Source: Akkermansiaceae bacterium (GTDB lineage Bacteria > Verrucomicrobiota > Verrucomicrobiia > Verrucomicrobiales > Akkermansiaceae). From it: DNA of 41,893 nucleotides. Under the pieces are notes generated by a model. The model ran no database searches, had not been told where the DNA came from, and saw only the letters and a program-made list of their open reading frames with translations. The DNA lies in NCBI GenBank assembly GCA_903906515.1, contig CAIVKO010000186.1:1-41893 (forward strand), read 5' to 3'. The position numbers and the translations under genes were made by a program. Positions 237 through 18,498 of this stretch are shown piece by piece (position 1 is the stretch's first letter; each line of letters opens with the position of its first letter).

Positions 237-3023
237 TCATGCGGTGAGTGCTTGGTTCATTTCGGTGATCATGCAGTCCATTGGGTCGCCGAAGAGTTGG
301 TGCATTTTGCCGAGGCCGCCTTGGGCGTCGAAGGGGGCGAAGTCGAGGTCGTCGCGCTCGAAGCGGAGGGAGGTCATGATGTGGTCGCGGATCATTTCGA
401 GGAAGGCAGTCTGGGTTTGATTGAAAGGTTGTCCGGCGTTCTTTTTGAGAATCCAGTCGCGGTAGTTGCGGCGGACGGTGGCATCGAAGGGTGTGAGGGC
501 GGCATCGAAACCGCAGGCACGGCGGATGAGGGCGACGAGGGCGGTCAACTCGGTGAGGGGTTTGGCATTGTCCGGCAGGGCGTCGAGCTGGGCGTAGGCT
601 TCCCAGACGCGGAGCGGGGCGAGGCGCGGGGCGTCCTGCTTGAGGGCGGCGAGCACGTCCTTGATTTGGGTTAGGGTGACTTCCTGACGGCGCTGCGGTT
701 GCTGATAGTAGATGGTGAGGGCGTCGAGCTTGTCCTGATGCTCGCGGCAGAAGGTCTCGAATTCGGAGACAAAGGCGGCGGAGCGCTCGCGGGCGTCGGC
801 ATCCCACTCGGCGCGGACGAGGGTGTCCTGGGTATCGAGGTCGATGGTCTGGAGATTGGCGGTGCAGGTCTCGACGATGAGTTTCACAGCGGCTCCGGTG
901 AGCGGCGCGGCGGCGGCGGTGACGAGTTGTTGCTGGGCTTTTTCGCGGGCAAAGTCGCCGGGTTCGGTGCCGGGCTGCTGGCCGGTGAGTTCGAGGGCTT
1001 TTTGCTCGATGGCCTCGCCGTCGATGGAGTGGAAGAGGTTTCTAACAAGGTGGCCGATGGAAGTGCCGCCGAGTTTTTCGGCGATCGCTTGTTTCTGGTC
1101 GTCCGTGAGCATGCGGTCGATGCGGGCGAGGCGACCGGCGAGGGAGGAGATGGTATCGGCATCGGTGGCCCCCATGACGACTTCCATGGCGAGATCCTTG
1201 AAGGGCACGGAGGGCTTGGTGATGGGCGGGCGGCTGGCGGTCTTGAGCGACTTGGTGACGCCGATGGCATCGACGATGACGTAGTGGGTCTTGGCGGTCT
1301 TCGCGGCGGGTGAGGCTTTGCGCAAACCATCGTGATCGAGCGTGCGGGTGCCGCGGCCTTTCATCTGCTCGAAGTAGCCGCGCGATTTCACGTCGCGCAT
1401 GAAGAGTAGGCATTCGAGCGGTTTCACGTCGGTGCCGGTGGCGATCATGTCCACGGTCACGGCGATGCGCGGGTGGTATTCGTTGCGGAACTGTTGGAGG
1501 ACGGATTTGGGGTCTTCCTCGTTCTTGTAGGTGACCTTTTTGCAGAAGGCGTTTCCCTCATCGAATTCTTCGCGGACAATGTTGATAATATCGTCGGCGT
1601 GGGAATCCGTCTTGGCGAAGATCAGGGTTTTGGGGACTTCGTATGCGCCATCGGTGCCGGTGCGGTCGGGGAAAATTTCCGGGAGCTTGTCGCGGAAGGT
1701 TTTCACGACCGTGCGGATCTGCGAGGGATTCACGATGTCGCGGTCGAGAGCTTTGTTAGAATACGCTTCATCCTCGTCCTGGGCTTCCCAGCGTTTGGCG
1801 CGGGTGAGTTTCTCGCGTTTTTCGACCAGGCCTTTGAGGACGGTGCCGCCGTTTTGGGTGACCTCGGTTTCGATGACGTAGATTTCGCCCTGGACGTTCA
1901 CGCCATCGGCCACGGCATCCTCGTGGGTGTATTCGGAGACGACGTTCTGGTTGAAGAAGGCATAGGTGCGGGCATCCGGCGTGGCGGTGAGGCCGACGAG
2001 GAAGGCATCGAAGTAATCGATTACCTGCCGCCAGAGATTGTAAATCGAGCGGTGGCATTCATCGATGATGATGAGGTCGAAGTGCTCGATGGAGACTTTT
2101 TCGTTATAGACGACGGGGAATGGCTCCTTGCGGGTGGATTTCCGTTCACCGGGGTTTTCGTCTTCGGCGGATTCGTCGAGCTCCTTGTTTTGAAGGATCG
2201 AATACATCCGCTGGATGGTGGAGATGCAGACCTCGGCATCTTTCGGGACGTGGGAGGAGTTGAGTCGCTGGACGGAGTAGAGTTCGGTGAACTTCCGGTT
2301 GTCGTCGGACGGCTGATAAGCGAGGAACTCCTGTTCGGCCTGTTCGCCGAGGTTGCGGGTATCGACGAGAAAGAGGACGCGTTTCACCCGGGCGTGCTTG
2401 AGCAGGCGGTAGATGGCCGTGATGGCGGTGAAGGTCTTCCCCGAGCCGGTGGCCATCTGGACGAGCGCGCGGGGTTTGACGAGCTTGAGGGATTTATCGA
2501 GCGCGGTGATGGCGGTGATCTGGCAATCCCGGAGGTCGGTGGGATCGAGAGGTGGAAGATCGAGGAGCCGGGAGCGGAGGGATTTTTCCTGTGAGAGAAA
2601 TTCGCGGAGGGTTTCCGGGCGGTGGAAGGTGAAGACTTCGCGCGAGCGGGGTTTCGGGTCACGCTGGTCGGTGAAGCGGGTGATGACGCCGGTGGCTTCG
2701 TAGAGAAAGGGGAGGGGAATGCCGGTTTGTTGGACCCACTTGAGCTTGGAGACGGAGTATTCATGCGTCTGCAACTCGACGGTGGTGATGTTTTGGCCAA
2801 GGTTCTCCTTTTTTGCTTCGATGACACCGACGGGTTTGCGATCCACAAATAGGACATAGTCGGCAGGACCGGAGTCCGTGGTGTATTCGCGGACGGCCTG
2901 GCCTTCGCCATCGTTCGGGTTGAAATCGTCTTTGTTTTGAACGGCCCAACCTGCGGCGCGGAGTTGTGCGTCGATCCGGTCGCGGGCTTTTTGCTCAGGA
3001 TTTTGGTTGGGCATTTGTGTCAT
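237..3023 (-). CDS. hsdR: Type I restriction enzyme R subunit (HsdR-like)
   Basis: This 928-aa protein would be the motor and nuclease subunit of a type I restriction system, translocating DNA by ATP hydrolysis and cutting it. An N-terminal PD-(D/E)xK nuclease is visible (D55, then E69-A-K71). The SF2 helicase follows: Walker A ATGSGKT at 191-197, DECH at 321-324, GLTATP near 346 and a GRGTR motif VI near 560. A long helical C-terminal region follows, normally used to contact HsdM. Length fits the EcoKI-like branch. Neither hsdM nor hsdS lies upstream, where a tRNA and hypE sit; they may lie left of the window or be missing. The stop is close to the repeat block at 1-226. Family assignment is firm; activity depends on absent partners. 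Confidence 0.9.
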   Translation of the reverse strand: MTQMPNQNPEQKARDRIDAQLRAAGWAVQNKDDFNPNDGEGQAVREYTTDSGPADYVLFVDRKPVGVIEAKKENLGQNITTVELQTHEYSVSKLKWVQQTGIPLPFLYEATGVITRFTDQRDPKPRSREVFTFHRPETLREFLSQEKSLRSRLLDLPPLDPTDLRDCQITAITALDKSLKLVKPRALVQMATGSGKTFTAITAIYRLLKHARVKRVLFLVDTRNLGEQAEQEFLAYQPSDDNRKFTELYSVQRLNSSHVPKDAEVCISTIQRMYSILQNKELDESAEDENPGERKSTRKEPFPVVYNEKVSIEHFDLIIIDECHRSIYNLWRQVIDYFDAFLVGLTATPDARTYAFFNQNVVSEYTHEDAVADGVNVQGEIYVIETEVTQNGGTVLKGLVEKREKLTRAKRWEAQDEDEAYSNKALDRDIVNPSQIRTVVKTFRDKLPEIFPDRTGTDGAYEVPKTLIFAKTDSHADDIINIVREEFDEGNAFCKKVTYKNEEDPKSVLQQFRNEYHPRIAVTVDMIATGTDVKPLECLLFMRDVKSRGYFEQMKGRGTRTLDHDGLRKASPAAKTAKTHYVIVDAIGVTKSLKTASRPPITKPSVPFKDLAMEVVMGATDADTISSLAGRLARIDRMLTDDQKQAIAEKLGGTSIGHLVRNLFHSIDGEAIEQKALELTGQQPGTEPGDFAREKAQQQLVTAAAAPLTGAAVKLIVETCTANLQTIDLDTQDTLVRAEWDADARERSAAFVSEFETFCREHQDKLDALTIYYQQPQRRQEVTLTQIKDVLAALKQDAPRLAPLRVWEAYAQLDALPDNAKPLTELTALVALIRRACGFDAALTPFDATVRRNYRDWILKKNAGQPFNQTQTAFLEMIRDHIMTSLRFERDDLDFAPFDAQGGLGKMHQLFGDPMDCMITEMNQALTA

Positions 3024-3281: not shown

Positions 3282-3403
3282 CTCTTCTTTGCTTCCGTGC
3301 CGGAAGCTAAGAATGGCAAGCCATTGGATTGTCTATACCGCTAGTAATTCCTATTGTGTCCGCACTTCAATCCGCCGCCGCGTTTTCCTCCTGTCCCACT
3401 CCG

Positions 3404-4420
3404 ATGTTTCACCGGACCGAGATCACCATGGCTCATGGCGGCGGGGGGAGCCTGACACAGGATTTGATTAACCGCATTTTCCGGCCTGCTTTCGCCAATG
3501 CCGGACTCGAAGCACAACACGATGGGGCCTTGCTGGATTTCCCCGGTGGCGGTCGACTGGCATTCACCACCGACTCTCATGTCGTGAGTCCGTTGTTTTT
3601 CCCCGGCGGTAACATCGGCACCATCGCCGTCAATGGCACGGTCAACGACCTTTGCATGTGCGGGGCCCGCCCGCTTTGGTTGAGCGCGGGCTTCATTCTG
3701 GAAGAGGGCTTTGAAATCGAAACCCTGCAAAAAATCGTCGCTTCGATGAAATCGGCGGCGGAAGCTGCGGGAGTCGTGATCGTTACCGGCGACACCAAGG
3801 TCGTCGAGAGAGGAAAAGGAGATGGCTTGTACATCACCACCTCCGGCGTGGGTGTCATCGAAACCCCTCTGACCATCGCGCCAACAAGCATCCGTCCGGG
3901 AGATGCCGTGATTCTCAGCGGTGATATTGGCAGACACGGGATGGCAATCATGGCGACACGGGCGGGTCTGTCATTCGAGAGTGAGATCGAAAGCGACTGT
4001 GCGCCGTTGGTGGCTCCGGTGATGGCTTTGTTAGATGCTGGATTGGAGATCCACTGCCTGCGCGATCTTACCCGGGGAGGGCTCGCGACATCGCTCGTCG
4101 AACTCGCGGAAGCTTCGGCACTCGCCATTTCGATTGACGCTTCCCTGCTACCGGTTTTCGAACCCGTAGGAGGTGCGTGCGAAATTCTTGGCCTGGATCC
4201 GATGTATGTGGCCAACGAAGGGCGGTTTGTCTGCGTGCTGCCGCAAGACCAGGCGGACCGCGCGCTCGAAATCATCGCCCGCACCGCTCCCGGCGGGCCG
4301 CCGGTGAGAATCGGCAAGGTGCTCGACGGCCCACCAGGAAGAGTCACCCAACGCAGTGTGATCGGATCCGAAAGAATCGTCGATCGCTTGAGCGGTGAAC
4401 AGCTTCCTCGGATTTGTTAG
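3404..4420 (+). CDS. hypE: Hydrogenase maturation factor HypE
   Basis: HypE dehydrates the carbamoyl group that HypF places on its C-terminal cysteine, making the thiocyanate that becomes the CN ligands of the NiFe-site iron. The sequence has the glycine-rich AHGGGGS start, the AIR-synthase-like ATP-binding fold ([23 protein letters not shown]) and ends in PRIC with the required terminal Cys. I place the start at the Met of MFHRTEIT (3404); an upstream in-frame ATG at 3329 would add 25 residues not expected for the family, and neither has a clear ribosome site. It is the only hyp gene on the plus strand and ends 2 bp from the 3' end of hypD, so it needs its own promoter. Confidence 0.95.
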
Positions 4421-4422
4421 AG

Positions 4423-5514
4423 TCAGGCGGTTCTTCCCCGGTAGCGAAAGTACGCTGCGCATGCACCCTCGCTGGACACCATGGGTGCGCCGAGCGGATG
4501 ATCGGGTTGGCAACGTGTGCCGAATGCGGGACAGTCGTGCGGTTTTTTCACTCCGCGCATGATCGCGCCGCTGATGCATTCCGATGCGGCGTCGGCAGCG
4601 GTATCCTTCAGCTGGAATCGGAGGTTCGCATCGAAAGCGGAGTATGCCGGCCTGAGTGAAAGTCCGCTGTCCGGGATCACGCCGATGCCGCGCCAATCGC
4701 GGTCGGCGATTTCGAAAACCTGCTCGATGATGCGGCGGGCGTGGGGATTCCCCACGTGTTTGACCGCACGGGAATATGCATTCTCCACCTCAGCCCGTCC
4801 TTCTTCCAACTGCTTCACGCAAAGGTGGATTCCTTCGAGAATGTCAACCGGTTCAAAGCCGGTGATGATGATGGGGGCTCCGTATTCAGCGGCAATCGGT
4901 CCGTATTCCTCCAGTCCCATGATCGTGCAGACGTGACCCGCTGCTAGAAAACCCTGCACTTGATTGTCGTCCGCTCCGAGGATCGCTCGCATCGCCGGTG
5001 GAACCAGAACATGTGATGTTAGAATACTGAAATTCCCCAAACCTTCGTGTTCCGCACGGAGGACGGACATCGCATTCGCCGGAGCGGTGGTTTCAAAACC
5101 CACCGCGAAAAAAACCACTTGTTTTTCAGGGTTTTCTCTGGCGATCGCGACCGCATCCAGCGGAGAATACACGATGCGCACATCCCCGCCACGTGCCTTG
5201 GCCGTGAGCAGGTCGATCGAATTTCCGGGAACCCGAAGCATGTCGCCGAAAGAACAAAGAATCACCTTGTGAGACAACGCGAGCTCCACTGCCTGATCGA
5301 TCAATCCGGCACTGGTCACACACACCGGACATCCCGGTCCATGCACCAGGGTGATCAAATCTGGCAGCAATTCATCCAGGCCGAAGCGAACGATGGCATG
5401 GGTCTGGCCACCGCAGATTTCCATGATAGTCCATGGTCGTGTGACAATGCGCTGGATCGAATCCGCCAATTTGCGGACCAGAGCTGCATCGCGGTATTCA
5501 TCGACGTATTTCAC
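4423..5514 (-). CDS. hypD: Hydrogenase maturation factor HypD
   Basis: HypD is the iron-sulfur scaffold that, with HypC, assembles the Fe(CN)2CO unit. The 363-aa product has the family hallmarks: CGGQTH near residue 35, GPGCPVC near 60, GFETT near 150 and a C-terminal cysteine set (ECISG, DCPAFG, RCQP, GACAAYF) consistent with 4Fe-4S ligation. Its start overlaps the hypC stop by 4 bp, so the two are translationally coupled. It is last in the hypABFCD run and converges with hypE. Confidence 0.96.
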
Positions 5515-5780
5515 CGTTCACCTGCACCTTCCACTTCTGATTCCAATCCATCGAGGTCGCCCATTTGTTTTAGATAGGAAAACGTTTCCTCCGCCTCTTT
5601 TTCATCGATGACGCTGATGGCCACACCCACGTGAACGAGCACATAGTCACCGGGCTTCGCCTCCGGCGCGCAGGTAAGGCTCACATGCTTGATGACGCCG
5701 GCAAAACTCACGCGGGCACTGCGTAAAAGCGGGTCATCTCCCTGAATATCGATTACTTTTCCTGGAACGGCGAGGCACAT
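5511..5780 (-). CDS. hypC: Hydrogenase maturation chaperone HypC
   Basis: This 89-aa chaperone begins MCLAVPGKV; the N-terminal Cys2, exposed after Met removal, binds iron or the large subunit, which fixes the start. HypC partners with HypD and then delivers the Fe(CN)2CO group to the large-subunit precursor. The start lies inside the last 28 bp of hypF and the stop overlaps hypD, a tightly coupled arrangement. The C-terminal tail is slightly longer and more acidic than in minimal HypC proteins. Confidence 0.95.
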
Positions 5781-8104
5781 GGTGGTGGTGGGTTTTGGGG
5801 TGGTTCAACAGTCGTCAGATTCCAAAGCGCTGCGAGCGCCTGACCTGCTGCTATGGCTCCATCATTCGATGGCAACTCGATTGGCGCAAGTACCTTCATG
5901 CCGGATTTCACCAGGCCGGATTCCGCCAGGTCACGCAAAAGGGCGTTTTGAAAACACCCGCCGGATAGAACCACCGTCCGGACGCCGGACAAACGGCAGA
6001 CTTCCACCAAGGCATCGGCGAGACCACGGTGGAATGCGGCGGATAAGGCACAGGCCGGACGCTCCGGTCCGGATAACAACGGGAGAATCGCGGGAGTCCA
6101 ATCCATTTCCCAACAGACACCGTCCGTGGAAGGTGTGATGGAAAATGGCAGGGATTCAGTGTCGGTTGGAGATGCCAACGCTGCGGTCTCAACTGCGAGC
6201 GGCAACTGGCCTTCAAAGAAATTGGTGTTGCCCAGACCCGCCAGAGCGGCGAAACCATCGAACATGCGTCCGATGCTGCTGCATACAGGTGAATGAATCC
6301 CCTGGTCCATCATGGTCCGCAACGTATCGGCCTCGCGTGATGAAAATCCAAAACGCGCAGACGTTTTCGCTAACAGAGAAGCATCACAGGCGTGGGCCAG
6401 CGCCACCGCCATTCTGCGGGCATCTTTCACCGAAGCCTCACCGCCTGGCAGGCGGAACGGGCGCAAACGCGCAAATCGTGTGGCAACCCCGCCTTGCAGC
6501 AGGATGAATTCACCACCCCAAATGGTGCCGTCCTCACCATAACCGGTTCCATCCCATGCCACGCCGAGCACTCCGTCGGGTGGATGGCGGTGTTCTAACA
6601 AAACTGCCAACACATGTGCGAGGTGATGTTGCACGGAAATCACCGGAAGGCCGGATTCGATCGCATGACGGGTGGAATGATAATCCGGATGTTTGTCGCA
6701 AACCACCATGCGTGGATCGGATGCCAACAAGGATTGCAAGGTGTGAATCGTGCGGGTGAAAACCTCGTGGGTTGCAACGCCGCCGAGATCCCCAATATGC
6801 GGACTGATGACCAATCTTTGTCCGGAAGCGACGGCAACCGTGTTTTTCATCTGCGCACCCACGCACAACACCGGATGCGGTAGGGACGATGGCAATTCTA
6901 CGGGTGCCGGTGCATATCCACGCGCCCGCCGTAACAAAATCCTGCTTCCCGCAGGCGTGAATCTCACAACCGAATCATCGATCGGTCGGGCAACCTCACG
7001 ATTGTGAGTGAGAAACAACTCCGCGATTCCACCGAGTCGTTCGCGAGCTTCGTCGTTGTCGTAGCAAAGCGGTTCTTCGGAATGATTCGCACTGGTGGCC
7101 ACCAGCGGCCTGCGGATTTTTTCCATCAGGATCCAGTGCATCGGCGACGACGGCAAAAGCGCCCCGATCCACGGGTTTCCAGGCGCCACCGATTCCGCCA
7201 GTTCCGCAGTGGATTTTTTCCCGACCAACACGATGGGAGCCTGCGGAGAAACTAACAACTCGGCGGCACTCCCGCTGACATCCGCCCACAGCCGGAGCAT
7301 ATCGAGATCCCGGAACATCACTGCGAACGGTTTTTCCTCGCGATGCTTGTGACGCCGTAGTTCGAAAACCGAACGCTGGTTGGTCGCATCCGCCATCAGA
7401 TGAAACCCACCGACGCCTTTCGCCGCGAGAATTCCGCCGCCTATCAGGAAATCGACCGCCATCGCAATCCCCGCATCGCCACGGGCCAACGATTTCCCGG
7501 AATTGTCAGTTAGATTGAGAACAGGACCACATGCCGGGCAAGCATTCGGTTCGGCGTGAAACCTCCGGTCGGAAGGGTCGGCGTATTCCCGCAAGCAATC
7601 GGGACACATCGAAAACCCGCGCATGGTGGTCCTTGGGCGGTCGTAGGGAAGGGATTCGATGATCGAATAGCGGGGGCCGCATTGCGTGCAATTGATGAAC
7701 GGATACTGATAACGGCGGTTTTCGGGGTCGCACATTTCACGCATGCAATCGGCGCAGGGCGCGAGATCCACAGGAATTGCGGTTTCAATTTCCCCGCTTG
7801 CGGCGGTGCTTTCCAGAATGTGGAACCCTGCGATGGCTTCGGAATCATCCGGAGTATCATCAAGCCAGCCGACGCTTGTAACACGGGCGGCTGGCGGTTG
7901 TCGCATCACGATTTGCGTGCCAAACCGCTCCAAGGTTTCCGCCTCACCGATCGCGCGGATCAACACCCCCACCGCATCGTTTTTCACCCAACCGTCCACA
8001 CCCAATTCACGGGCCAAGCGAAGCACAAACGGGCGGAAACCGATCCCCTGCACCGTGCCACGCACCCGCAACATGCGATCAACGGTGGGCGGTAAGGAAT
8101 CCAT
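5753..8104 (-). CDS. hypF: Carbamoyltransferase HypF
   Basis: HypF makes carbamoyl-adenylate from carbamoyl phosphate and ATP and transfers the carbamoyl group to HypE. The 783-aa order is standard: acylphosphatase domain (RVRGTVQGIGFRPF, residues 13-26); two zinc-finger-like CxxC pairs (CADC, CTQC, CPDC, CPAC, about 115-190); a YrdC-like domain (about 205-390); and a Kae1-like domain with VAWDGTGYGEDG near 550 and the C-terminal SGGCFQN. No active-site residue appears lost. Only 25 bp separate it from hypB upstream, and it overlaps hypC downstream. Confidence 0.96.
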   Translation of the reverse strand: MDSLPPTVDRMLRVRGTVQGIGFRPFVLRLARELGVDGWVKNDAVGVLIRAIGEAETLERFGTQIVMRQPPAARVTSVGWLDDTPDDSEAIAGFHILESTAASGEIETAIPVDLAPCADCMREMCDPENRRYQYPFINCTQCGPRYSIIESLPYDRPRTTMRGFSMCPDCLREYADPSDRRFHAEPNACPACGPVLNLTDNSGKSLARGDAGIAMAVDFLIGGGILAAKGVGGFHLMADATNQRSVFELRRHKHREEKPFAVMFRDLDMLRLWADVSGSAAELLVSPQAPIVLVGKKSTAELAESVAPGNPWIGALLPSSPMHWILMEKIRRPLVATSANHSEEPLCYDNDEARERLGGIAELFLTHNREVARPIDDSVVRFTPAGSRILLRRARGYAPAPVELPSSLPHPVLCVGAQMKNTVAVASGQRLVISPHIGDLGGVATHEVFTRTIHTLQSLLASDPRMVVCDKHPDYHSTRHAIESGLPVISVQHHLAHVLAVLLEHRHPPDGVLGVAWDGTGYGEDGTIWGGEFILLQGGVATRFARLRPFRLPGGEASVKDARRMAVALAHACDASLLAKTSARFGFSSREADTLRTMMDQGIHSPVCSSIGRMFDGFAALAGLGNTNFFEGQLPLAVETAALASPTDTESLPFSITPSTDGVCWEMDWTPAILPLLSGPERPACALSAAFHRGLADALVEVCRLSGVRTVVLSGGCFQNALLRDLAESGLVKSGMKVLAPIELPSNDGAIAAGQALAALWNLTTVEPPQNPPPPCASPFQEK

Positions 8105-8129
8105 CGGGCGGGTGGGGTGGCGTCGCGGT

Positions 8130-8912
8130 TTATTCGACCGATGTCAAATGGGATTCAAGATAGCGATACCACGCTTCCATGCCTTCTCCGCTGCGGGCGG
8201 ACAACTCGATGCACTCTGCCCGAGGGGCCATCCGGCGGATGTTATCGAGCGCCTGAAGGCGATCAAATCCAAGCACTTCCGCGATATCGATTTTTGTGAG
8301 AAGGACCAAATCCGCGGACTTGAATATCGGTGGGTATTTCAAGGGTTTGTCCTCACCCTCGGTTGCGGAAAGCAGGACAACGCGCAGGGTTTCCCCGAGA
8401 TCGAAATCCGCGGGGCAAACGAGGTTTCCTACATTTTCGATGAACAACACACGGACATCGGTTAGATCCAGAGCCTTGACTCCGCGGGCCACCATATCCG
8501 CATCCAGATGGCACGCCGTTCCGGTGGTGATCTGCGCGACCTGCACATGTGGGCGATGCAAACGCCGGGCGTCGTTGTCGGTTTCGAGGTCCCCGACGAC
8601 CACCGCACAACGGTTGCCAAGGCCGAACTCATCCACCGTCCGCGACAGCAGGGTGGTTTTTCCCGAACCCGGTGAGGAAAGCAGATTGAGGGTGAGAATC
8701 CGCCGCTGTGAAAACAACGCGCGGTTAGCAGCCGCCAAATCATCGTTTTTCGCGAGCAATGACGTGTGAATCTCGATGGAATGTGGAGGCGACGATGTCG
8801 TGGATGCTCCATCCGATTCCGCGACACGGGGTTTCAACATTCCCGGAGCGATCCAACTCAGGACCTTCACGCCGAATGGCACTTTGTGATTGCAACCGCA
8901 TTCCTTACACAT
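8130..8912 (-). CDS. hypB: Hydrogenase nickel-insertion GTPase HypB
   Basis: HypB is the GTPase that, with HypA, inserts nickel into the large subunit. The N-terminal metal-binding motif CKECGC is present (residues 2-7). After a linker of about 60 residues comes the G domain: Walker A SSPGSGKTT, the GDLETDNDA switch region, ITTGTACHLDA with metal-site residues and the LLTKID base-recognition motif. No histidine-rich nickel-storage stretch is seen, so delivery rather than storage is likely. It starts 4 bp after the hypA stop. Confidence 0.96.
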   Translation of the reverse strand: MCKECGCNHKVPFGVKVLSWIAPGMLKPRVAESDGASTTSSPPHSIEIHTSLLAKNDDLAAANRALFSQRRILTLNLLSSPGSGKTTLLSRTVDEFGLGNRCAVVVGDLETDNDARRLHRPHVQVAQITTGTACHLDADMVARGVKALDLTDVRVLFIENVGNLVCPADFDLGETLRVVLLSATEGEDKPLKYPPIFKSADLVLLTKIDIAEVLGFDRLQALDNIRRMAPRAECIELSARSGEGMEAWYRYLESHLTSVE

Positions 8913-8916
8913 GGCA

Positions 8917-9264
8917 TCAGTTCATTTCGATTCGGCTGAGTTCAAGTTCACGTCCGCGCCTGATTTCGCCGCAGAGATCACCGCAAGTCGGGCAGATGAA
9001 AATATATCCTGCCGTATCCTGAATAAATTCATCGTTGCAACCCTGACAGAAAACCGAAGCAGGAACAATCTCGATTTCAAAATCCGCATTTTCCGCAAGC
9101 GTTCCCCGGGAAACCACGTCAAAGGCAAAACGCAGGGATTCCACTTCCACACCGGCAAGCGTCCCGATCCGCAATACCACGCGACTGACCTTCCGGGCAC
9201 GATTTTCCGTAGCATGTTGCAAAACGAAGGTCATCGCGGATTCCATGATGCCGATTTCGTGCAT
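8917..9264 (-). CDS. hypA: Hydrogenase nickel chaperone HypA
   Basis: HypA binds nickel through the N-terminal Met-His-Glu and zinc through two CxxC pairs (CQGC and CPTC, near residues 75 and 92). The start is fixed at the Met of MHEIGIM (9264), because the amino group and His2 are nickel ligands; an ATG four codons upstream (9276) would bury them. It is first of the minus-strand hypABFCD run and diverges from the hydrogenase structural operon, so the two probably share regulation from the intervening 165 bp. Confidence 0.93.
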   Translation of the reverse strand: MHEIGIMESAMTFVLQHATENRARKVSRVVLRIGTLAGVEVESLRFAFDVVSRGTLAENADFEIEIVPASVFCQGCNDEFIQDTAGYIFICPTCGDLCGEIRRGRELELSRIEMN

Positions 9265-9429
9265 AGGATGACTCAAAACAAATTCTGTTGGTTTCGTCGA
9301 GCCCGAGGTGAGTGATCAGAGGATACGCGTAAATCATAAGAGAATATGCATAGCTTTAATGAGAGAAATTTCATATCGTGAAACCCTGCTAATAGAGATG
9401 CAGGATTCCAAACCTAAACTCCTCATGTT
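9265..9429. promoter_or_regulatory. Divergent promoter region between hypA and the hydrogenase operon
   Basis: This 165-bp gap is the only space from which both hypABFCD and the structural operon can be transcribed. It is AT-richer than its flanks around 9330-9420 (for example AATCATAAGAGAATATGCAT), as expected for promoters. I see no convincing sigma-54 -24/-12 element and no clear activator palindrome, so the regulator cannot be named. Confidence 0.5.
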
Positions 9430-10599
9430 ATGGAAACGATTGGTGATTCCTCACTGCCTGATTCTCAGGACCGCGCGACGATCTACGAACAAATCACATC
9501 CCGAGGCGTTCCCCGGCGTGAGTTTCTCAAGTTCTGTGGATGGATGAGTGTCTGCATGGGATTGGGACCCGCAGGTGCCGCACAAGTGGCCGCCGCTTTG
9601 GAAAACAAACGCCGATTGCCAGTGGTTTGGCTGCATTTCCAGGAGTGCACATGCTGCAGCGAATCGTTCCTGCGCTCATCCCATCCGATCGTGGCGGACA
9701 TCCTGCTCGACAAGCTTTCCCTCGACTACACCGAAACCTTGATGGCTGCTTCTGGTCACCAAGCGGAGTCTTGCCTGCAGGATACGATCAAGAAATACAA
9801 AGGAGAATATGTCCTGTGCGTCGAGGGTTCCATTCCGCTCGGCGAGGATGGTGCCTATTGTTGCATCGGCGGGAAATCGGCCAAGCAAATCATCGAAGAA
9901 GTTGCGGCCGATGCCAAGGCAATCATCGCATGGGGGAATTGCGCCACCGCCGGTTGTGTCCAGGCGGCGAAACCAAATCCAACGATGGCGGCGCCGGTGC
10001 ATAAAGTCATCGCAGGAAAACCCATCATTCATGTGCAGGGCTGCCCACCGATCGCCGAGGTGATGGCCGGAGTCCTTGTCCACCTGCTGACATTCGACAG
10101 GATCCCCGAACTCGATTCTCTCGGGCGGCCGAAAGCATTTTATTCCCGCCGCGTTCACGACACCTGCTACCGCAGACCGAATTACGACGCGGGATTGTTT
10201 GTTGAATCATTCGATGACGAAAACGCACGCAAAGGATATTGCCTCTATAAAATGGGATGCCGAGGCCCGACCACCTACAATTCCTGCGGCACTATCCGTT
10301 GGAATGGAGGCGTCAGTTTCCCCATCCAGTCCGGCCACCCATGCATCGGATGTTCGGAAGAGAACTTCTGGGACAACGGACCCTTCTATCAGCGCTTGTC
10401 GAATCTGCCCGGCTTCGGCATCGAATCCACGGCGGACAAGATTGGAGGTGCCGTGCTTGGCGTCGCGGCCGTTGGCGCGGCAGCGCATGCGGTGATGACC
10501 AATCTGCGAAAACGCCATGCCATCGGCGAACAAGCCGGTGAAAGCGCTGAAAAAGCGGAGGAGAGCAACGCCAGCCAACATCCAGAAACCGAATCCTGA
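9430..10599 (+). CDS. hyaA: [NiFe]-hydrogenase small subunit, group 1, oxygen-tolerant type
   Basis: The 389-aa electron-transfer subunit carries three Fe-S clusters. A Tat signal is seen ([10 protein letters not shown] at 28-37, then a hydrophobic stretch), so the folded heterodimer is exported. The proximal-cluster motif is ECTCCSES (C73, C75, C76) and a second motif is GNCATAGC (C171, C176), with another ligand in HVQGCPP. With offset 56 these equal C17, C19, C20, C115, C120 and C149 of E. coli Hyd-1, so both supernumerary cysteines of the 4Fe-3S cluster are present. Medial and distal cluster motifs ([22 protein letters not shown]) follow, and a C-terminal hydrophobic segment near 337-355 anchors it. 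It is first in the operon, 20 bp before the large subunit. Confidence 0.96.
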
Positions 10600-10619
10600 G
10601 CCCCTGACCCATTGATCTT

Positions 10620-12335
10620 ATGAGTGAGCGAATTGTAGTGGACCCTGTCACCCGCATCGAAGGACATCTTCGTATCGAAGCCGAGGTGAAAGATGGAAAA
10701 ATCGTCGATGCATGGAGTGCCGGCACGATGGTGCGCGGGCTCGAAATCATCCTCAAAGGCCGCGACCCGCGGGACGCGTGGGCATTTGCCGAACGGGTTT
10801 GCGGCGTATGCACGACTGTGCACGCGCTGGCATCCGTGCGCTCGGTCGAAGACGCGCTGGCCATCAAGATCCCGCCGAATGCCGAACTGATCCGCAACAT
10901 CATGTTCTGCACCCAATACATCCACGACCATGTGGTGCATTTCTATCATTTGCACGCGCTCGACTGGGTGGATGTTGTTAGCGCGCTCAAGGCGGATCCT
11001 GCGGCAACATCGCAACTGGCGCAGAAACTCTCAAAATACCCGAAAAGTTCGCCCGGCTATTTTTCCGACGTCCAGAAGCGGTTGACAAAATTTGTGGAAA
11101 GCGGGCAGTTGGGGATTTTCGCCAATGGATACTGGGGGCACCCGGCATTCAAACTTCCGCCGGAAGCGAATTTGATGGCGGTGGCACACTACCTCGAAGC
11201 CCTCGAATGGCAGAAGGAAATCGTCAAAATCCATGCCATTTTCGGTGGAAAGAACCCCCATCCGAACTACCTCGTTGGCGGAGCGCCCTGTTCTATCAAC
11301 ATCGACGAAGCCAATGCCATCAACGCCGAACGCCTCGCGTTTGTCGGTCAAGCGCTGCAGCGTGGACTCGAGTTTGTCGAACAGGTTTACATTCCGGATG
11401 TCATGGCGGTGGCACCGTTTTATCTGGACTGGGCCGGGATCGGTGGCGGGTTGGAAAACTATCTGTGCTATGGCGACTTGCCGACTAACGGATTTTCCGA
11501 TATTTCCAGTTTCAAATTCCCCCGCGGTGCGATCCTCGGCCGCGATCTGACAAAAGTGCACCCGGTGGATCCCAAGGATGATACCGGCGTTCAGGAATTC
11601 ATCGATCACTCGTGGTATGAATACTCCAGCGAAGGTGGAAAACACCCGTGGAAAGGGGAAACCAACCTCAAATACTCAGGGCCGAAACCACCCTATGAAC
11701 ATCTCGACGTGGAGAAAAAATACAGCTGGCTCAAAACCCCGCGCTGGAAAGGACACGCTATGGAAGTCGGTCCCCTCGCCCGCATGTTGGTCGGATATGC
11801 TTCCGGCCAACCGGAAATCAAGGAGGTGGTGACGGAAGCCCTCACCGCGCTCAACGCACAACCTGCCGTGCTTTTCTCCACGCTCGGTCGCACGGCCGCG
11901 CGCGCCATCGAATCGCGTCTGGCCGCGCGCTGGGGATTGGAGTTTTTCCAACAACTGTTAGCCAACATCAAGGCCGGCGACACCCGCACGTTTACCCGGG
12001 ATCGCTGGGAGCCGTCCACTTGGCCATCAGAAGCCCGAGGGGTTGGTTGCAGCGAAGCCCCGCGCGGTGCACTCGCCCACTGGATCGTCATCAAGGATTC
12101 GAAAATCGCGAATTATCAATTGGTGGTTCCGAGCACTTGGAACGCATCACCACGAGATGGCAAAGGTCAACGATCGGCTTATGAGCAGGCGCTCATCGGC
12201 ACACCGGTACATGACCCGCAACAACCGCTTGAATTGATCCGCACCATCCACTCGTTCGACCCCTGTCTGGCGTGTGCCGTCCACCTTTATGAGGATCAAA
12301 AGGAAATCGCCAGGCACGAACTGCTGGTGAAATAA
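10620..12335 (+). CDS. hyaB: [NiFe]-hydrogenase large subunit
   Basis: The 571-aa catalytic subunit holds the NiFe site. The N-terminal cysteine pair is in ERVCGVCTTVH (about residues 59-69) and the C-terminal pair in DPCLACAVH. After the final His a 16-residue tail (LYEDQKEI...) remains, which the maturation protease encoded downstream should remove once nickel is in place. DPVTRIEGHLRIE near the N-terminus contains the conserved Glu of the proton path. It has no signal and travels with the small subunit through Tat. Sequence style fits group 1 membrane-bound uptake enzymes. Confidence 0.96.
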   Translation: MSERIVVDPVTRIEGHLRIEAEVKDGKIVDAWSAGTMVRGLEIILKGRDPRDAWAFAERVCGVCTTVHALASVRSVEDALAIKIPPNAELIRNIMFCTQYIHDHVVHFYHLHALDWVDVVSALKADPAATSQLAQKLSKYPKSSPGYFSDVQKRLTKFVESGQLGIFANGYWGHPAFKLPPEANLMAVAHYLEALEWQKEIVKIHAIFGGKNPHPNYLVGGAPCSINIDEANAINAERLAFVGQALQRGLEFVEQVYIPDVMAVAPFYLDWAGIGGGLENYLCYGDLPTNGFSDISSFKFPRGAILGRDLTKVHPVDPKDDTGVQEFIDHSWYEYSSEGGKHPWKGETNLKYSGPKPPYEHLDVEKKYSWLKTPRWKGHAMEVGPLARMLVGYASGQPEIKEVVTEALTALNAQPAVLFSTLGRTAARAIESRLAARWGLEFFQQLLANIKAGDTRTFTRDRWEPSTWPSEARGVGCSEAPRGALAHWIVIKDSKIANYQLVVPSTWNASPRDGKGQRSAYEQALIGTPVHDPQQPLELIRTIHSFDPCLACAVHLYEDQKEIARHELLVK

Positions 12336-12355
12336 ACCCCAACCTTGGAATCGCC

Positions 12356-13123
12356 ATGCAAAATTCACACGATTACCAGCGCGTTTACGTGTGGGAACAG
12401 CCAGTGCGCTGGTTCCATTGGATCAACGCACTCTGCATCCTTGTCCTCGGCGTTACCGGATATCTGATCGCGCATCCGCCCGCACTGATGAATTCAGGCG
12501 AGGCGAATTTCAGTTATTGGTTCGGCAAGCTGCGCTTCGCGCATTTTCTGACAGGATATGTGTTTCTGGCGAACTTCCTGTTCCGTCTCTACTGGGCTTC
12601 GGTTGGGAATAAATACACCCATTGGAGGAATTTTTTCCCGGTCTCGAAAAAACAAATCCAACAGGTATGGGCCGTGCTCAAGGTGGATGTCCTGCAATCC
12701 AGCGACAAACCCGTTCATGTGCTCGGGCACAACTCGGTGGCCTATTTCACCTACATGGGCACGGGATTGCTGACGGTTTTCCAGGTGGTCTCGGGTTTTG
12801 CGCTCTACGCCCCGATGAGCCAGTTCTGGTTTACCCACCTTTTCGATTGGGTTGTGCCGATTTTCGGTAGTGAACAAAATCTGCGGTTATTCCACTATAC
12901 CGTCCTCTGGTTGTTCGCGGTGTTCACGTTCATCCACGTGTATCTTGTGTTCTATCATGATTATGTCGAAGGACATGGTGTTCTTTCCTCCATGGTCGGC
13001 GGATGGAAGTTCATGGAAACCGAAAAAGTCAGTCAAGAGGAGTCCGCCAACATCGCTGGTATCCCGACAAAAACCGCCGCTCCAAAACCGGTGAAACAGG
13101 CGCAGGGAAAACCCAATGCATAG
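12356..13123 (+). CDS. hyaC: Hydrogenase cytochrome b subunit (HyaC-like)
   Basis: This 255-aa integral membrane diheme cytochrome b takes electrons from the small subunit and reduces quinone. Four hydrophobic segments are visible (about 23-43, 58-80, 125-150 and 180-205), and candidate heme ligands are the histidines in VRWFHWIN, RFAHFLTG, LRLFHYTV and FTFIHVYL. The last 30 residues form a charged, Ala/Pro-rich tail. It lies 20 bp after the large subunit and overlaps the protease gene by 8 bp. Confidence 0.94.
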   Translation: MQNSHDYQRVYVWEQPVRWFHWINALCILVLGVTGYLIAHPPALMNSGEANFSYWFGKLRFAHFLTGYVFLANFLFRLYWASVGNKYTHWRNFFPVSKKQIQQVWAVLKVDVLQSSDKPVHVLGHNSVAYFTYMGTGLLTVFQVVSGFALYAPMSQFWFTHLFDWVVPIFGSEQNLRLFHYTVLWLFAVFTFIHVYLVFYHDYVEGHGVLSSMVGGWKFMETEKVSQEESANIAGIPTKTAAPKPVKQAQGKPNA

Positions 13124-13646
13124 CCTGATCGATAATCCGCTCGTCGGAGAAAATTCAGCCAGACACTCGGGAGATTCCCGGACCCAATGTCCTGTGCTGG
13201 TGCTGGGTGTGGGCAACCTGCTCATGGGTGACGAAGGCGTGGGAGTGCATGTTTTGCGCGCGTTGGAAAATGAAGCGCCAGTTGATGGAGTGAGATTGTT
13301 AGACGGTGGAACCGGCGGCATCAACATCCTCATGGAATTCGACGGAGTGAGCGACGTCATTCTTATCGATGCCACACGCGACGGAAAACCTGCGGGAAGC
13401 ATCGCATTTCTCCAACCCGAAAATGTTGGAGATCTCCCGAGGGGTTTGGGGGCGCACGATTTCGGGTTGAAGGATTTGTTTGCGGTATCCGCCCTGCTCG
13501 GGAAGATGCCGAAGATTCATCTTTTCACCATCTCGGTGGAGGAAATACGGCCGATGTGCATGGAATTATCGAACCCGGTGCGCGGGGCGATGCCCGAGGT
13601 CATGCGCGAGGTGCGTGAATTGGCTGGAAAATTGGCTCTCGAATGA
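13116..13646 (+). CDS. hyaD: Hydrogenase maturation protease (HyaD/HupD family)
   Basis: This 176-aa endopeptidase removes the C-terminal tail of the large subunit after nickel insertion. The family core is clear: VLGVGNLLMGDEGVGVHV (about 29-46) with the metal-binding Glu, ILIDATRDG with the second acid, and the His of GLGAHDFGLKD. The first 25 residues before CPVLVLGVGN are unusual and not conserved in style, so a later start is possible, but the 8-bp overlap with the cytochrome gene supports coupled translation from 13116. Confidence 0.93.
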   Translation: MHSLIDNPLVGENSARHSGDSRTQCPVLVLGVGNLLMGDEGVGVHVLRALENEAPVDGVRLLDGGTGGINILMEFDGVSDVILIDATRDGKPAGSIAFLQPENVGDLPRGLGAHDFGLKDLFAVSALLGKMPKIHLFTISVEEIRPMCMELSNPVRGAMPEVMREVRELAGKLALE

Positions 13647-14335
13647 TAACCGACATCAATGTTCTGGCGCTGGACGCGGCGGCGGTTGCCTTCATCCACA
13701 CCGTGATCGGGCCGGACCACTACATTCCGTTCATTGTGATGGCCAAGGCGCGGAATTGGTCCATGGCAAAAACAGCTACGATCACTTTCGCCTGTGGAAT
13801 CGGTCACGTGGCCGGGTCCATCGCGCTGGGGCTGATCGGATATGCGCTGGGGACCAGTCTGCGATACCTTGAATGGATCGAATCGGTGCGAGGCGAGATT
13901 GCCGCATGGTTGTTGATCGTGTTCGGCACCTTGTATGCCGCATGGGGATTGTGGAGATTGAAACGCCGATCACCCGACGGACACAGCCACGATCACCTCA
14001 TCCGCTTGCACTCTCATGATCACATTCACGATCCCAAAACCGGTGAGGAAATCAGTCTCACACCGTGGATTCTCTTTGCGATATTTGTATTCGGCCCCTG
14101 CGAACCGTTGATTCCACTCTTTATCTATCCTGCCGCAACCATGGGATGGAGCGGTGCCTGGTATGTCAGCGCCGCATTTTCCGCAGTCACCATTGGATCG
14201 ATGATGGTTCTGGTTCTTGCCGCGCGTTATGGACTTGAGTGGCTGCCGGCAAAAAAAATGGTGCGTTACAATCACGTCCTCGCCGGAAGTTCCATCGCAC
14301 TGACCGGTGTCATGATTGTGTTTCTCGGACTTTGA
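13643..14335 (+). CDS. NicO/UreH-like nickel or cobalt transporter
   Basis: This 230-aa membrane protein has about six hydrophobic segments, an HTVIGPDHY motif (residues 20-28) like the HxxxxDH signature of NicO/RcnA transporters, and a histidine-rich cytosolic loop (HSHDHLIRLHSHDHIHD, about 114-130) typical of nickel or cobalt handling. A second signature, FGPCEPLIPLF, precedes the last helices. The start overlaps the protease stop (ATGA), so it belongs to the hydrogenase operon, which favours nickel import. A UreH/sulfite-exporter-type role is the alternative. Its 3' end overlaps the opposing gene by 26 bp. Confidence 0.8.
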   Translation: MITDINVLALDAAAVAFIHTVIGPDHYIPFIVMAKARNWSMAKTATITFACGIGHVAGSIALGLIGYALGTSLRYLEWIESVRGEIAAWLLIVFGTLYAAWGLWRLKRRSPDGHSHDHLIRLHSHDHIHDPKTGEEISLTPWILFAIFVFGPCEPLIPLFIYPAATMGWSGAWYVSAAFSAVTIGSMMVLVLAARYGLEWLPAKKMVRYNHVLAGSSIALTGVMIVFLGL

Positions 14336-17300
14336 CTGGCATGGAATCGCCGAGAACCAGCACCGCATGGAATGGCAGCGTTTTGATGCTGATGGATTTC
14401 CCTGATGCGTCGATGGCACATTCTTGTTTGTTTTTTCCTGTCGTGGACTGGATGTTTTTCCCCGGTGGCAGGGGCGGCATGATAGAAAGTCCACCCGTTG
14501 GCATGGTTAGCGTGCCGCCGATATCCACTTGGATTGAATTCATCCCATTGGATTGAATTTTGAAATCAAGCGTGCCGTGGCGGGTGGGGAGTTTCTTGAC
14601 CAAGAATCCGTCCTCGTTGGCAATCCATGACCACGGCATTCCGGAGGCGAGCACCATCGAGTCGACCGCTTCGTGTTCGCAAGCGACCATCGAGGCCAGT
14701 GCCAGCAGGTATTCCGCGGCGATCCAGGTGTGCGGGACATCGCCGAGGTGGCCGGGCGAACGCGGGTTTTTCCATGTGATCTCGGGCCATTGGTTCCATT
14801 CGACCGGTCTGCGGTCGGATAGGAAAAACTCGAGAAGTTCATTCGCTTCGTCGCGTTTTCCGAGACGCACGAAGGCTCCGATGATGCGGATTTCGTATGC
14901 GGTGTAGTTGTTCCACTGCATTTCTCCCCGATGTTTGCGGTGGAAGCCATCGAGATAGATTTCTAACATCGAGTGAAGCGGTCCCTGTGGCAGGACGCCT
15001 GCGAAGTCGAGTTGGGCGATGGCGTTGGATGTGGCGGTGGGATCGAAGTCCGCCCATTCAACCGATCCGGGGATGTAGGTGAGTTGTTTGTCGGCGATGA
15101 CTTTGTCGATGGATTTCAGCAGGTCCTTCTGGAAACATCCGGCTTCGGATTTCCAACGCTTTGAATCATCGGATAGATCCATGGTGGAGGCGACATCAGC
15201 GGCAGCCTCGAGACCGCGCACTCCCCAGAAATCATCCCAATAGGAATGCACCGGATGGGCGAGATATCCTTCGTGGCTTGCGGACTCCGGGAGTAGGCCG
15301 AAACACGCGGCGTGCTCACCCGTTAGATAATCATCCGTCATGCGCTCCTTGCGCAGAAGGACCAGATAGTCCGCCGCCTTGCGCACATGGGGTAGCATTT
15401 TTTTGAGAAAACGTCTGTCGCCGCCATTGCGGAAAACCTCCCGGACTCCCCAGAGGAACTGACCGTGGCTGTCATGTTCGACCAGCCAATCCACGCCATC
15501 GCGATCCACCACGCAGGGAATGAATCCGTCATCGCGCTGGAATTGCGCATACCACGTCAGAAACTCGCGCAATGACTTGGGAAGCCCGGCTTTGGCGAGG
15601 GCCGCGCCCATGATCACACAGTCGCGGACCCATGACCGCGTGTAGCGACGCGGACCCGGTTGGATGGCGGGTCCGTCGCGGTTGATCAGGATGTGGCCGG
15701 CGGTTGTGTGGAAACAATCGAAGGCGGGTTGTGCGCATTCCGGGACCTGCCATTTTACACCGCCGAGGGTTTTCCGCCAGAAGGCGAGTGCGGCGGCCCT
15801 GCTGGTTTTGGCGGGCTTTTTGGCTTTGTCGAAATACGGAACGGAAACAGTGACCTCGAGAGTTGTTTTCCCAGCGGGGAGTTCCCATGACATCGCTGCG
15901 GAGGCAAGACCGGAAGTGTCATCGACCTGCTGCTGCGGTGGGATGTCTCCATTTGTCAGAAATGCATACGCACCGCCTTGGTCGAAGGCTGCGGCTCCCA
16001 TGCCTTGAGGGCGGGGGGTGCATGAGAGTTGGCGGTTCTCGACGCACATTTCGTTTTCCTGACAGGTGATCTTATGGATCGGACTGCGGCCGCCGAGATT
16101 GCGGAATGCCTGCCAAGGTGGATTCACCTGAAACGGTCGCACGGCGACGACCAGGCGGGTATCCGGGTGTTTGCATTTCAACCGATAGGTGACATGTAGC
16201 GTGAGCCGGTCGCCACGGCCATCGACCCAGGGTAGAATCTCTAACCGGATGTCGCGTGTTTTCCATGTCACGGATGGCATGGGTGCGCCGCCCTTGGGCA
16301 GTCCGAGGGAGGATTTTATCTCCGCCCATGTGATCATGTCGCCGTTTGTCAGGATGACCGGTTCTAACGAAAATCCGGCCTCGTCGACTTCCACCATGCC
16401 TTCTTCGTTGATCAACGCCCGGCGTTTTCCTTCCGGGCTGCCGACCGGTGTCCAGTAGGATTGCTCGCGGTGCCAGTAACGGGGGAACCAGCCTCGCGGA
16501 AAATCCGCAGCAATGGAGTGGATGAATTCGTTAGGTGTGCTCGAAAAGGCGTCCGGCCTCAACTTGATGGAACATAGCGCAGCGCAGCCGGGATTGTCGA
16601 AAGTGATCCGCAGGTGCCGTGCCTCCGCTCCCGGTGCGGGAATATGGCTTTTCGCCCCAAGTGCGGCCGTCGAGTGATGGATGGAAGTCCATGATTGGCC
16701 GTCATTTGAAATTTCCACATCGAAATTTCTCGGCGGTAGGGACTCAGGCCAATCGATCACCAGACCGCCGAAACGCAGGGGATAACCGAAATCCACTAGC
16801 CATGAGGGCTTTGGATCATTACAGGCAGATCTCCAGCCTTGGGTGGAATCCACATCAAATACCGCCTGCGGAGGAAATCCCGGTTGATGGCTGGAGGCCG
16901 TGATCGCGCGGGGTTTGCGCAGTGTTTGATCATCGAGTTCCGGAGATGCGAGTTCCAGCATGCCCTTGCCTCCTGGTCCTGCGGCAATGACGAACTCGAC
17001 TGCCTCGACCTCGGATGGTCCACCTCCACCCGCAGGTCCCCAGGCAAACGGCAGATCGCGTTCGCGGATGTGCCATTGGGTCGAGACCTCCGGGATCTTG
17101 AAGTCCAGTCGCTGATGCCGCCATACGTTGGCACCTCCGGGGTCGGCCACTTTGAATTCGAAATGATTTGGCGGGCCTTCGCCGCGCAGGTGGAACGAGA
17201 TTTGAAAAGTCTCCGGCAGTTTGAAATGAAGCAACCGCCGCAGCACCACGAATCCGCCGCCACCATGGAAATCATAGTCGAGACGCAGTCCGGGTTTTCC

Positions 17301-17405
17301 ATCAATGGTGGGGCCTCGGGAAATCTTTCCTTCCGCCTGGCCCGATGCAAAGACCTGCCAGGTGTTGAGGTCGTCGAATAGTGCAGCGAATGGGTGGGTT
17401 TTCAC
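14310..17405 (-). CDS. F5/8-type (discoidin) domain protein with six-hairpin glycosidase-like domain
   Basis: A 1031-aa protein probably acting on carbohydrate. Residues 1-165 look like a beta-sandwich (DLNTWQVFASGQAEGKI onward). Residues about 168-295 resemble an F5/8 type C carbohydrate-binding domain (ITASSHQPG, DVDSTQGWRS, DVEISNDGQSW). The C-terminal half, from RSWVRDCVIMGAALAKAG, is an (alpha/alpha)6 toroid like glucoamylase or debranching enzymes, with acidic candidates in QRDDGF, HDSHGQFLWG and EWNQWPEITW. No signal peptide is seen, so it may be cytoplasmic, which is odd for a discoidin protein. Substrate unknown. It converges on the nickel transporter and is followed upstream by an exported protein gene. 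Confidence 0.75.
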   Translation of the reverse strand: MKTHPFAALFDDLNTWQVFASGQAEGKISRGPTIDGKPGLRLDYDFHGGGGFVVLRRLLHFKLPETFQISFHLRGEGPPNHFEFKVADPGGANVWRHQRLDFKIPEVSTQWHIRERDLPFAWGPAGGGGPSEVEAVEFVIAAGPGGKGMLELASPELDDQTLRKPRAITASSHQPGFPPQAVFDVDSTQGWRSACNDPKPSWLVDFGYPLRFGGLVIDWPESLPPRNFDVEISNDGQSWTSIHHSTAALGAKSHIPAPGAEARHLRITFDNPGCAALCSIKLRPDAFSSTPNEFIHSIAADFPRGWFPRYWHREQSYWTPVGSPEGKRRALINEEGMVEVDEAGFSLEPVILTNGDMITWAEIKSSLGLPKGGAPMPSVTWKTRDIRLEILPWVDGRGDRLTLHVTYRLKCKHPDTRLVVAVRPFQVNPPWQAFRNLGGRSPIHKITCQENEMCVENRQLSCTPRPQGMGAAAFDQGGAYAFLTNGDIPPQQQVDDTSGLASAAMSWELPAGKTTLEVTVSVPYFDKAKKPAKTSRAAALAFWRKTLGGVKWQVPECAQPAFDCFHTTAGHILINRDGPAIQPGPRRYTRSWVRDCVIMGAALAKAGLPKSLREFLTWYAQFQRDDGFIPCVVDRDGVDWLVEHDSHGQFLWGVREVFRNGGDRRFLKKMLPHVRKAADYLVLLRKERMTDDYLTGEHAACFGLLPESASHEGYLAHPVHSYWDDFWGVRGLEAAADVASTMDLSDDSKRWKSEAGCFQKDLLKSIDKVIADKQLTYIPGSVEWADFDPTATSNAIAQLDFAGVLPQGPLHSMLEIYLDGFHRKHRGEMQWNNYTAYEIRIIGAFVRLGKRDEANELLEFFLSDRRPVEWNQWPEITWKNPRSPGHLGDVPHTWIAAEYLLALASMVACEHEAVDSMVLASGMPWSWIANEDGFLVKKLPTRHGTLDFKIQSNGMNSIQVDIGGTLTMPTGGLSIMPPLPPGKNIQSTTGKNKQECAIDASGKSISIKTLPFHAVLVLGDSMPVKVRETQS

Positions 17406-17413
17406 TAGTTTTG

Positions 17414-18289: not shown

Positions 18290-18498
18290 GACGACGGAAG
18301 GCAGGTCAATGTGAAAGAGTCCAATTTGGGACGGCGCATGGATGGGAGAGCGTCGCCGTTGCAGACGAGCGGGGATTTTTTCCCGGAAGCGTGCCTTGGA
18401 CAATCAGGTGAATTTCCTCATCGAGCCGCCTGCCGTTGGAAGAGATGTCACCCTTGGCGGAGGAGTGAATCAAACAGGTGGCGCTCCAAGGTCTGGTT

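Follow-up and report, generated by a model that had tools for sequence, protein, structure and literature searches.

The closest described counterparts of the hydrogenase analyzed here are HoxKGZ of C. necator (structure 3rgw) and Hyd-1, or HyaABC, of E. coli (3uqy). Both have six-Cys small subunits, in which the Cys set binds a [4Fe-3S] proximal cluster, and the motif is used on genomes as a predictor of aerobic H2 oxidation. Hyd-5 requires Glu73 and His229 of its large subunit for H2 oxidation in air, an ability that the Ala variants lose; the available portion of that report describes Glu73 as highly conserved in O2-tolerant enzymes, with Gln usual in sensitive ones (PMC3940037). Aerobic cluster formation in C. 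necator appears to need auxiliary proteins, among which the accessible section discusses HoxR and does not name HoxO or HoxQ (PMC10583674), and R. leguminosarum is reported, in an excerpt, to be less dependent on HupGHIJ at ultra-low oxygen (PMC3534401). Published excerpts on oxygen phenotype are mixed: the group 1d (hup-type) enzyme of Methylacidiphilum fumariolicum SolV is described as sensitive to oxygen, with expression at less than 0.2% O2 (PMC5364354); a second source counts SolV, V4, Kam1, and RTK17.1 among the tolerant strains, notes that the data for SolV and RTK17.1 conflict, and states that "other factors are at play" (PMC6813726); and marine group 1d genes reach their highest abundance and expression in hypoxic waters (PMC10305171).

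We compared with these systems a hydrogenase locus on contig CAIVKO010000186.1 (assembly GCA_903906515.1) of an Akkermansiaceae bacterium. The window is the whole stretch analyzed, 41,893 nt. Its hydrogenase genes are as follows.

3329–4420, plus strand: hypE, named from its AIRS and AIRS_C domains and its place
4423–5514, minus strand: hypD (TIGR00075, over cut-off)
5514–5780, minus strand: hypC (PF01455)
5753–8104, minus strand: hypF (TIGR00143, over cut-off)
8130–8912, minus strand: hypB (TIGR00073, over cut-off)
8917–9264, minus strand: hypA (PF01155, 1.6e-31), with ATG at 9264 and two CxxC pairs
9430–10599, plus strand: hupS/hyaA-type small subunit (TIGR00391, 490 bits, over cut-off)
10620–12335, plus strand: hupL large subunit, 571 aa (PF00374, 792 bits)
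12356–13123, plus strand: hupC/hyaC b-type cytochrome subunit (TIGR02125, 164 bits, over cut-off)
13116–13646, plus strand: hupD/hyaD-type maturation endopeptidase (TIGR00072, over cut-off), overlapping hupC by 8 nt
13643–14335, plus strand: 230-aa membrane protein with six hydrophobic stretches and a His-rich loop, overlapping hupD by 4 nt

The genes hupS, hupL, hupC, and hupD and that of the 230-aa protein are spaced by 20 nt or overlap, and a promoter and terminator scan of 9200–14420 gave counts within the shuffle range (2 vs. 3.6; 8 vs. 6.1, SD 2.3). As judged from sequence, 9430–14335 forms an operon encoding a group 1d-type, membrane-bound respiratory [NiFe] uptake hydrogenase, with the hyp genes alongside. 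Hyd-1 shares the six Cys (59% identity) and the gene order S-L-C-D; its hyaD is followed by hyaE and hyaF, whereas hupD is followed by the gene of the 230-aa protein, a putative metal (possibly nickel) permease that reached no Pfam family at its gathering score. Homologues of this gene lie directly after hupD in a second genome of the genus (G570) and in 3 of 5 loci from family f5, which we infer to be Opitutaceae because its clade contains the named MAGs L002 and L010; an Ignavibacteriota MAG (L005) has one homologue. HoxKGZ has in common with HupSLC the six-Cys small subunit (66% identity to HupS over 274 mature positions), Glu and His at large-subunit positions 73 and 229, and a b-type cytochrome partner. 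It differs in its surroundings: HoxO, an expression/formation protein (HoxQ), a rubredoxin (HoxR), HybE (HoxT), and HoxV stand beside the C. necator structural genes, the names HoxQ, HoxR, and HoxT being assigned from gene order, and O, Q, R, and T gave no blastp match at the HupS locus. One further ORF (8890–9312, plus strand) was rejected as a gene: it is antisense to hypA, and its tblastn matches in G570 and three f5 loci fall between hypB and hupS.

The hupS ORF starts with ATG and encodes 389 aa, with a Tat-like motif (VPRREFLKF) at residues 27–35 and a single C-terminal hydrophobic stretch at residues 338–356. Its top structural matches were C. necator HoxK (3rgw_S, E = 2.7e-143) and variants, the membrane-bound hydrogenase 3ayx, and Hyd-1 (3uqy_S, E = 1.1e-131); in the alignments of the five best matches, all HoxK or variants, HupS ran gap-free until residue 320. 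Mature residue 1 of HoxK and Hyd-1 corresponds to HupS residue 57, and C73, C75, C76, C171, C176, and C205 align, as residues only, with HyaA mature positions 17, 19, 20, 115, 120, and 149. The preliminary description had reached these six Hyd-1 positions by counting and had predicted an oxygen-tolerant hydrogenase from them; on alignment to HyaA and HoxK the register is exact, and C75 and C176 coincide with positions 19 and 120, where E. coli HybO (Hyd-2) and the regulatory HoxB of C. necator have Gly. By sequence, HupS has the Cys set that holds the [4Fe-3S] cluster in Hyd-1 and HoxK and keeps the residues conserved for the other two clusters, and HupL has both Ni-Fe ligand motifs.

All six proximal Cys are kept in 80/80 fetched small-subunit relatives; because these were chosen by similarity, the conservation speaks for the close family and not for all hydrogenases. 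Glu at 76 and Pro at 242 are equally invariant (80/80), as are seven tabulated His/Cys positions that we take to be the ligands of the other two clusters. The adjacent pair C144–C145, earlier called unusual, turned out to be common: C144 (HyaA C88) is Cys in 80/80 relatives and in HyaA, HoxK, and HybO, and C145 (position 89) is Cys in 61/80 (Met in 16, Val in 3), with CC at 88–89 in 61/80. The pair was accordingly dropped as an oddity. Another candidate for an additional near-cluster Cys is C130, at position 74 and two residues ahead of E76; it is Cys in 31/80 relatives and in HoxB, which is not a six-Cys protein.

Several variants of the motif were observed in passing. In a genus of the same family (g3), 11/11 small subunits (L084–L093, L109) read C-G-C-C-S-C, with Ser at 120 and Asn at 76, and in each of the three large subunits examined position 73 is Glu, a residue otherwise characteristic of six-Cys enzymes. 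Two loci, L108 (genome G383) and L131 (a Sulfurimonas plasmid), have Asn for Cys at proximal position 20; the L108 genome has pMMO/AMO genes, which fits the Asn variant described, in the part of the source available, for mesophilic verrucomicrobial methanotrophs (PMC5364354). In a Parabacteroides distasonis record labelled plasmid (L128, NZ_OY725764.1), metabolic genes surround a complete six-Cys hydrogenase and hyp cluster.

A quick tree built from 118 small subunits united the 93 six-Cys rows in a single clade (SH-aLRT 97) and placed HupS inside an 11-row Opitutaceae/f5 set (99). The placement within the group 1 phylogeny thereby agrees with what the preliminary description proposed: HupS lies inside the six-Cys clade and not in an O2-sensitive one. 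A second tree, which included G570 and left out eleven rows that were long or distant, joined HupS to G570 (89) within a set of 12 rows (99) and recovered a 94-row six-Cys clade (87). Both trees were quick and without bootstrap, and their deep branching order differs: the second puts HyaA, HoxK, and the Methylacidiphilum-type rows amid rows from Bacteroidota. Together with the aligned positions, the clade bears out an oxygen-tolerant-type class (six-Cys, group 1d type). A standard oxygen-sensitive hydrogenase with coincidental extra cysteines has next to no probability, given the exact register at 19 and 120, the 80/80 conservation, the six-Cys clade, best structural matches to HoxK, Hyd-1, and similar enzymes, and the score of the Hyd-2 small-subunit model on HupS (317.6 bits, below its cut-off of 659); register, conservation, and clade likewise rule out a four-Cys enzyme with stray cysteines.

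The large subunit agrees with this class. HupL carries RVCGVC and DPCLAC motifs and a C-terminal extension beyond the last His; its L1 (ERVCGVCTTVH, Val for Ile) and L2 (SFDPCLACAVH) correspond to the group 1d motifs xxRICGVCTxxH and SFDPCLACxxH, as given in the accessible text of PMC5364354. HupSLC also has the Tat signal, C-terminal hydrophobic helix, and b-type cytochrome partner of group 1d. HydDB, as far as the excerpt goes, places Phaeodactylibacter xiamenensis (Bacteroidetes) in group 1d (PMC5037454); a Phaeodactylibacter MAG (L014) is among the HupS relatives. HupS/HupL is an ordinary member of an already known oxygen-tolerant class. We assign a probability of about 0.87 to a group 1d-type uptake hydrogenase with the following electron path. 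H2 would be split in the periplasm, and electrons would pass from the clusters through cytochrome b and the quinone pool to terminal oxidases; if O2 reached the active site, the [4Fe-3S] cluster would donate one further electron, allowing O2 to be reduced and the site to recover.

The nearest relatives of HupS are six-Cys hydrogenases of Bacteroidota, Ignavibacteriota, Acidobacteriota, and Opitutaceae type (e.g., L002, L014), and they share with its locus a lack of the HoxQ/HyaF family, in 48/48 genomes searched. This family (PF04809) was not found in the whole genome carrying HupS or in the one family member searched with a non-six-Cys enzyme (G101), and it occurred in 0/42 genomes of named six-Cys relatives (42 of the 80 being given) and 0/6 f5 genomes; the search control was positive in E. 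coli. A consistent zero over 42 genomes, whose completeness is not given, is hard to explain by gaps. The Methylacidiphilum-type enzymes (family f4, genus g28; G180, G207, G281) share with HupS the phylum of the host and the six Cys (3/3), but all three genomes have a HyaF/HoxQ-family gene, all three large subunits have Gln at 73, and the small subunits group with HyaA and HoxK. We infer the identity of g28 as Methylacidiphilum from pMMO/AMO genes in all three genomes and a second hydrogenase match in G180 and G281.

Other helpers gave a similar picture. The HyaE family (PF07449) was not found in the HupS-carrying genome; weak matches (E 5e-8 to 8e-4) in 8/53 genomes, and in 0/3 of Methylacidiphilum type, were set aside, uninspected, as thioredoxin-like noise, in a search whose control was positive in 7/14 genomes. 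Across ORFs of at least 60 aa in the window and in the 80 relative loci, which carry unequal amounts of flank, HyaE, HyaF, HoxO, HoxQ, HoxR, and HoxT had no blastp match at E < 1e-3; HoxV matched 51 loci (those shown being large-subunit ORFs) and HoxL matched 4, weakly. HoxQ/HyaF and HoxO/HyaE as found in proteobacterial systems, which are accessory to the class and do not define it, are hence missing from the set detected here. Where E. coli has hyaE and hyaF, the records of C. necator, R. leguminosarum, and Acidovorax carry annotations of HoxO, HupG, or hydrogenase and of a "hydrogenase expression/formation protein," and no such helper is annotated in the stretch shown of the Parabacteroides record. 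HupH of R. leguminosarum is presumably the HoxQ homologue. The literature searched yielded nothing on an absence of HoxO/HoxQ. Because HoxQ/HyaF and HyaE were not detected, HupSL might be assembled mainly at low oxygen, with activity that survives oxygen exposure; we hold this at somewhat less than even odds.

Two COX1-family genes and a single bd oxidase gene accompany HupS in its genome, and the host likely respires aerobically. These genes speak only faintly for aerobic H2 use, since such genes are common in relatives: a COX1-family match occurs in 51/53 genomes searched, among them 40/42 genomes of named six-Cys relatives, and bd oxidase was sought in the HupS-carrying genome only. The 51/53 count gives no backing to strict anaerobes as the main carriers of the motif, but the COX1 family can include nitric-oxide reductases. 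Carriers in which aerobic respiration is doubtful also exist: six-Cys relatives are found in two Dysgonomonadaceae genomes lacking a COX1-family gene (COX1 alone having been searched there) and in the Parabacteroides record. Parabacteroides is a gut anaerobe.

Whether the six Cys translate into H2 oxidation in air, as the preliminary description proposed for this bacterium, is a further step. From the sequence evidence it is plausible: the COX1-family and bd genes, the b-type cytochrome subunit gene, and Glu at large-subunit position 73 favor it; the conflicting SolV data, which raise doubt that six Cys suffice, and the failure to detect a HoxQ/HyaF gene in the genome weaken it. The enzyme could instead serve under anoxic or microoxic conditions only and be effectively oxygen-sensitive in vivo, like the reported SolV group 1d enzyme. 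We consider this less likely than not. The missing HoxQ/HyaF gene, the SolV sensitivity and expression data, the "other factors" remark, and the hypoxic peak of marine group 1d genes all favor such confinement; the tolerant listings of Methylacidiphilum strains, with the conflict noted for SolV and RTK17.1, the terminal oxidase genes, and the Gln of Methylacidiphilum-type enzymes where HupL has Glu count against it. We expect the host to oxidize H2 and pass the electrons to quinones when conditions are oxic to microoxic.

Position 73 separates HupL from many of its relatives. Taking HyaB Glu73 and His229 as equivalents of the Hyd-5 residues, HupL has Glu (E58) and His (H214) at these positions. 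The nearest six-Cys relatives vary: among 77 with a large-subunit match, position 73 is Glu in 29, Gly in 40, Gln in 7, and a gap in 1, that is, Gly or Gln in 47/76 readable sequences and Glu in 29/76. Glu is found in 5/5 f5 large subunits given (of 6 genomes) and in 4/4 proteobacterial six-Cys enzymes, and Gly in the Parabacteroides enzyme. At least four changes at this position map onto the 94 rows of the small-subunit tree, a count that implies no direction.

It is conceivable that real O2 tolerance across the six-Cys family needs both the six Cys and Glu73, while the Bacteroidota/Ignavibacteriota/Acidobacteriota/Opitutaceae-type set builds [4Fe-3S] without HoxQ/HyaF; Gly or Gln would then explain sensitive six-Cys enzymes, SolV included. 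We regard this combination as unlikely on balance, and lowered our estimate slightly because PMC6813726, in the part available, also lists Methylacidiphilum strains as tolerant. A simple Glu73 rule is further opposed by the non-six-Cys g3 enzymes, which have Glu in 3/3 given (of 11), and by the occurrence of Gly or Gln in many relatives with a COX1-family match in the genome. One factor that might underlie the conflicting Methylacidiphilum oxygen data is Gln at 73, against which the tolerant listings count; no statement to this effect was found in the literature searched. The motif alone may thus not predict hydrogen use in air: in many relatives it is uncoupled from a second residue whose importance for O2 tolerance has been demonstrated in one enzyme, and it is probably moving horizontally among relatives lacking a HoxQ/HyaF-family assembly protein. 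This yields a refinement, open to testing, of a widely used annotation rule, as well as a possible explanation of the discordant Methylacidiphilum reports.

The distribution of the cluster suggests how it reached this genome. In the family sample, 12/145 genomes match over the family cut-off, with six Cys only in the HupS-carrying one; in the genus, 4/73 match, two of them closely (the HupS-carrying genome and G570, at 83%), so that the hydrogenase occurs in 2/73. HupL is 93% identical to G570 and 81–88% to five f5 loci. NuoM, encoded on the same contig (20016–21623), is 83% identical to same-genus G013, the only same-genus genome among the matches listed, 75–78% to same-family G006, 63% to same-family G011, 51–55% to g3, and 43–48% to the best copies in f5 genomes. 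Because hupL is more conserved than NuoM, the tree and not these percentages carries the argument for transfer. The hydrogenase cluster was probably gained horizontally from an Opitutaceae-type verrucomicrobium, the contig itself looking native. A binning contaminant, from which nothing could be said of the host, would fit the contamination estimate of 3.45% and nearest hydrogenases that, G570 apart, are of Opitutaceae/f5 type and outside the genome's own family. It is nonetheless very improbable, in view of the NuoM affinity to the genus, the same cluster in G570, and a GC content of 56.4% at 3329–13643, near that of host stretches (57–58%) and below that of f5 loci (63–69%).

Other genes lie around the cluster. 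A type I restriction enzyme R-subunit-like gene (237–3023) adjoins hypE. Between the hydrogenase operon and nuoN, 14310–18403 encodes a 1031-aa protein with an F5/8 type C domain, which has no homologue in the fetched stretch of G013, and a 329-aa protein, for which that genome has a 61% homologue some 5.5 kb away from nuoN. Farther along the contig are a phage-integrase-family gene (26916–28205) and a group II intron reverse transcriptase/maturase (31959–33713).
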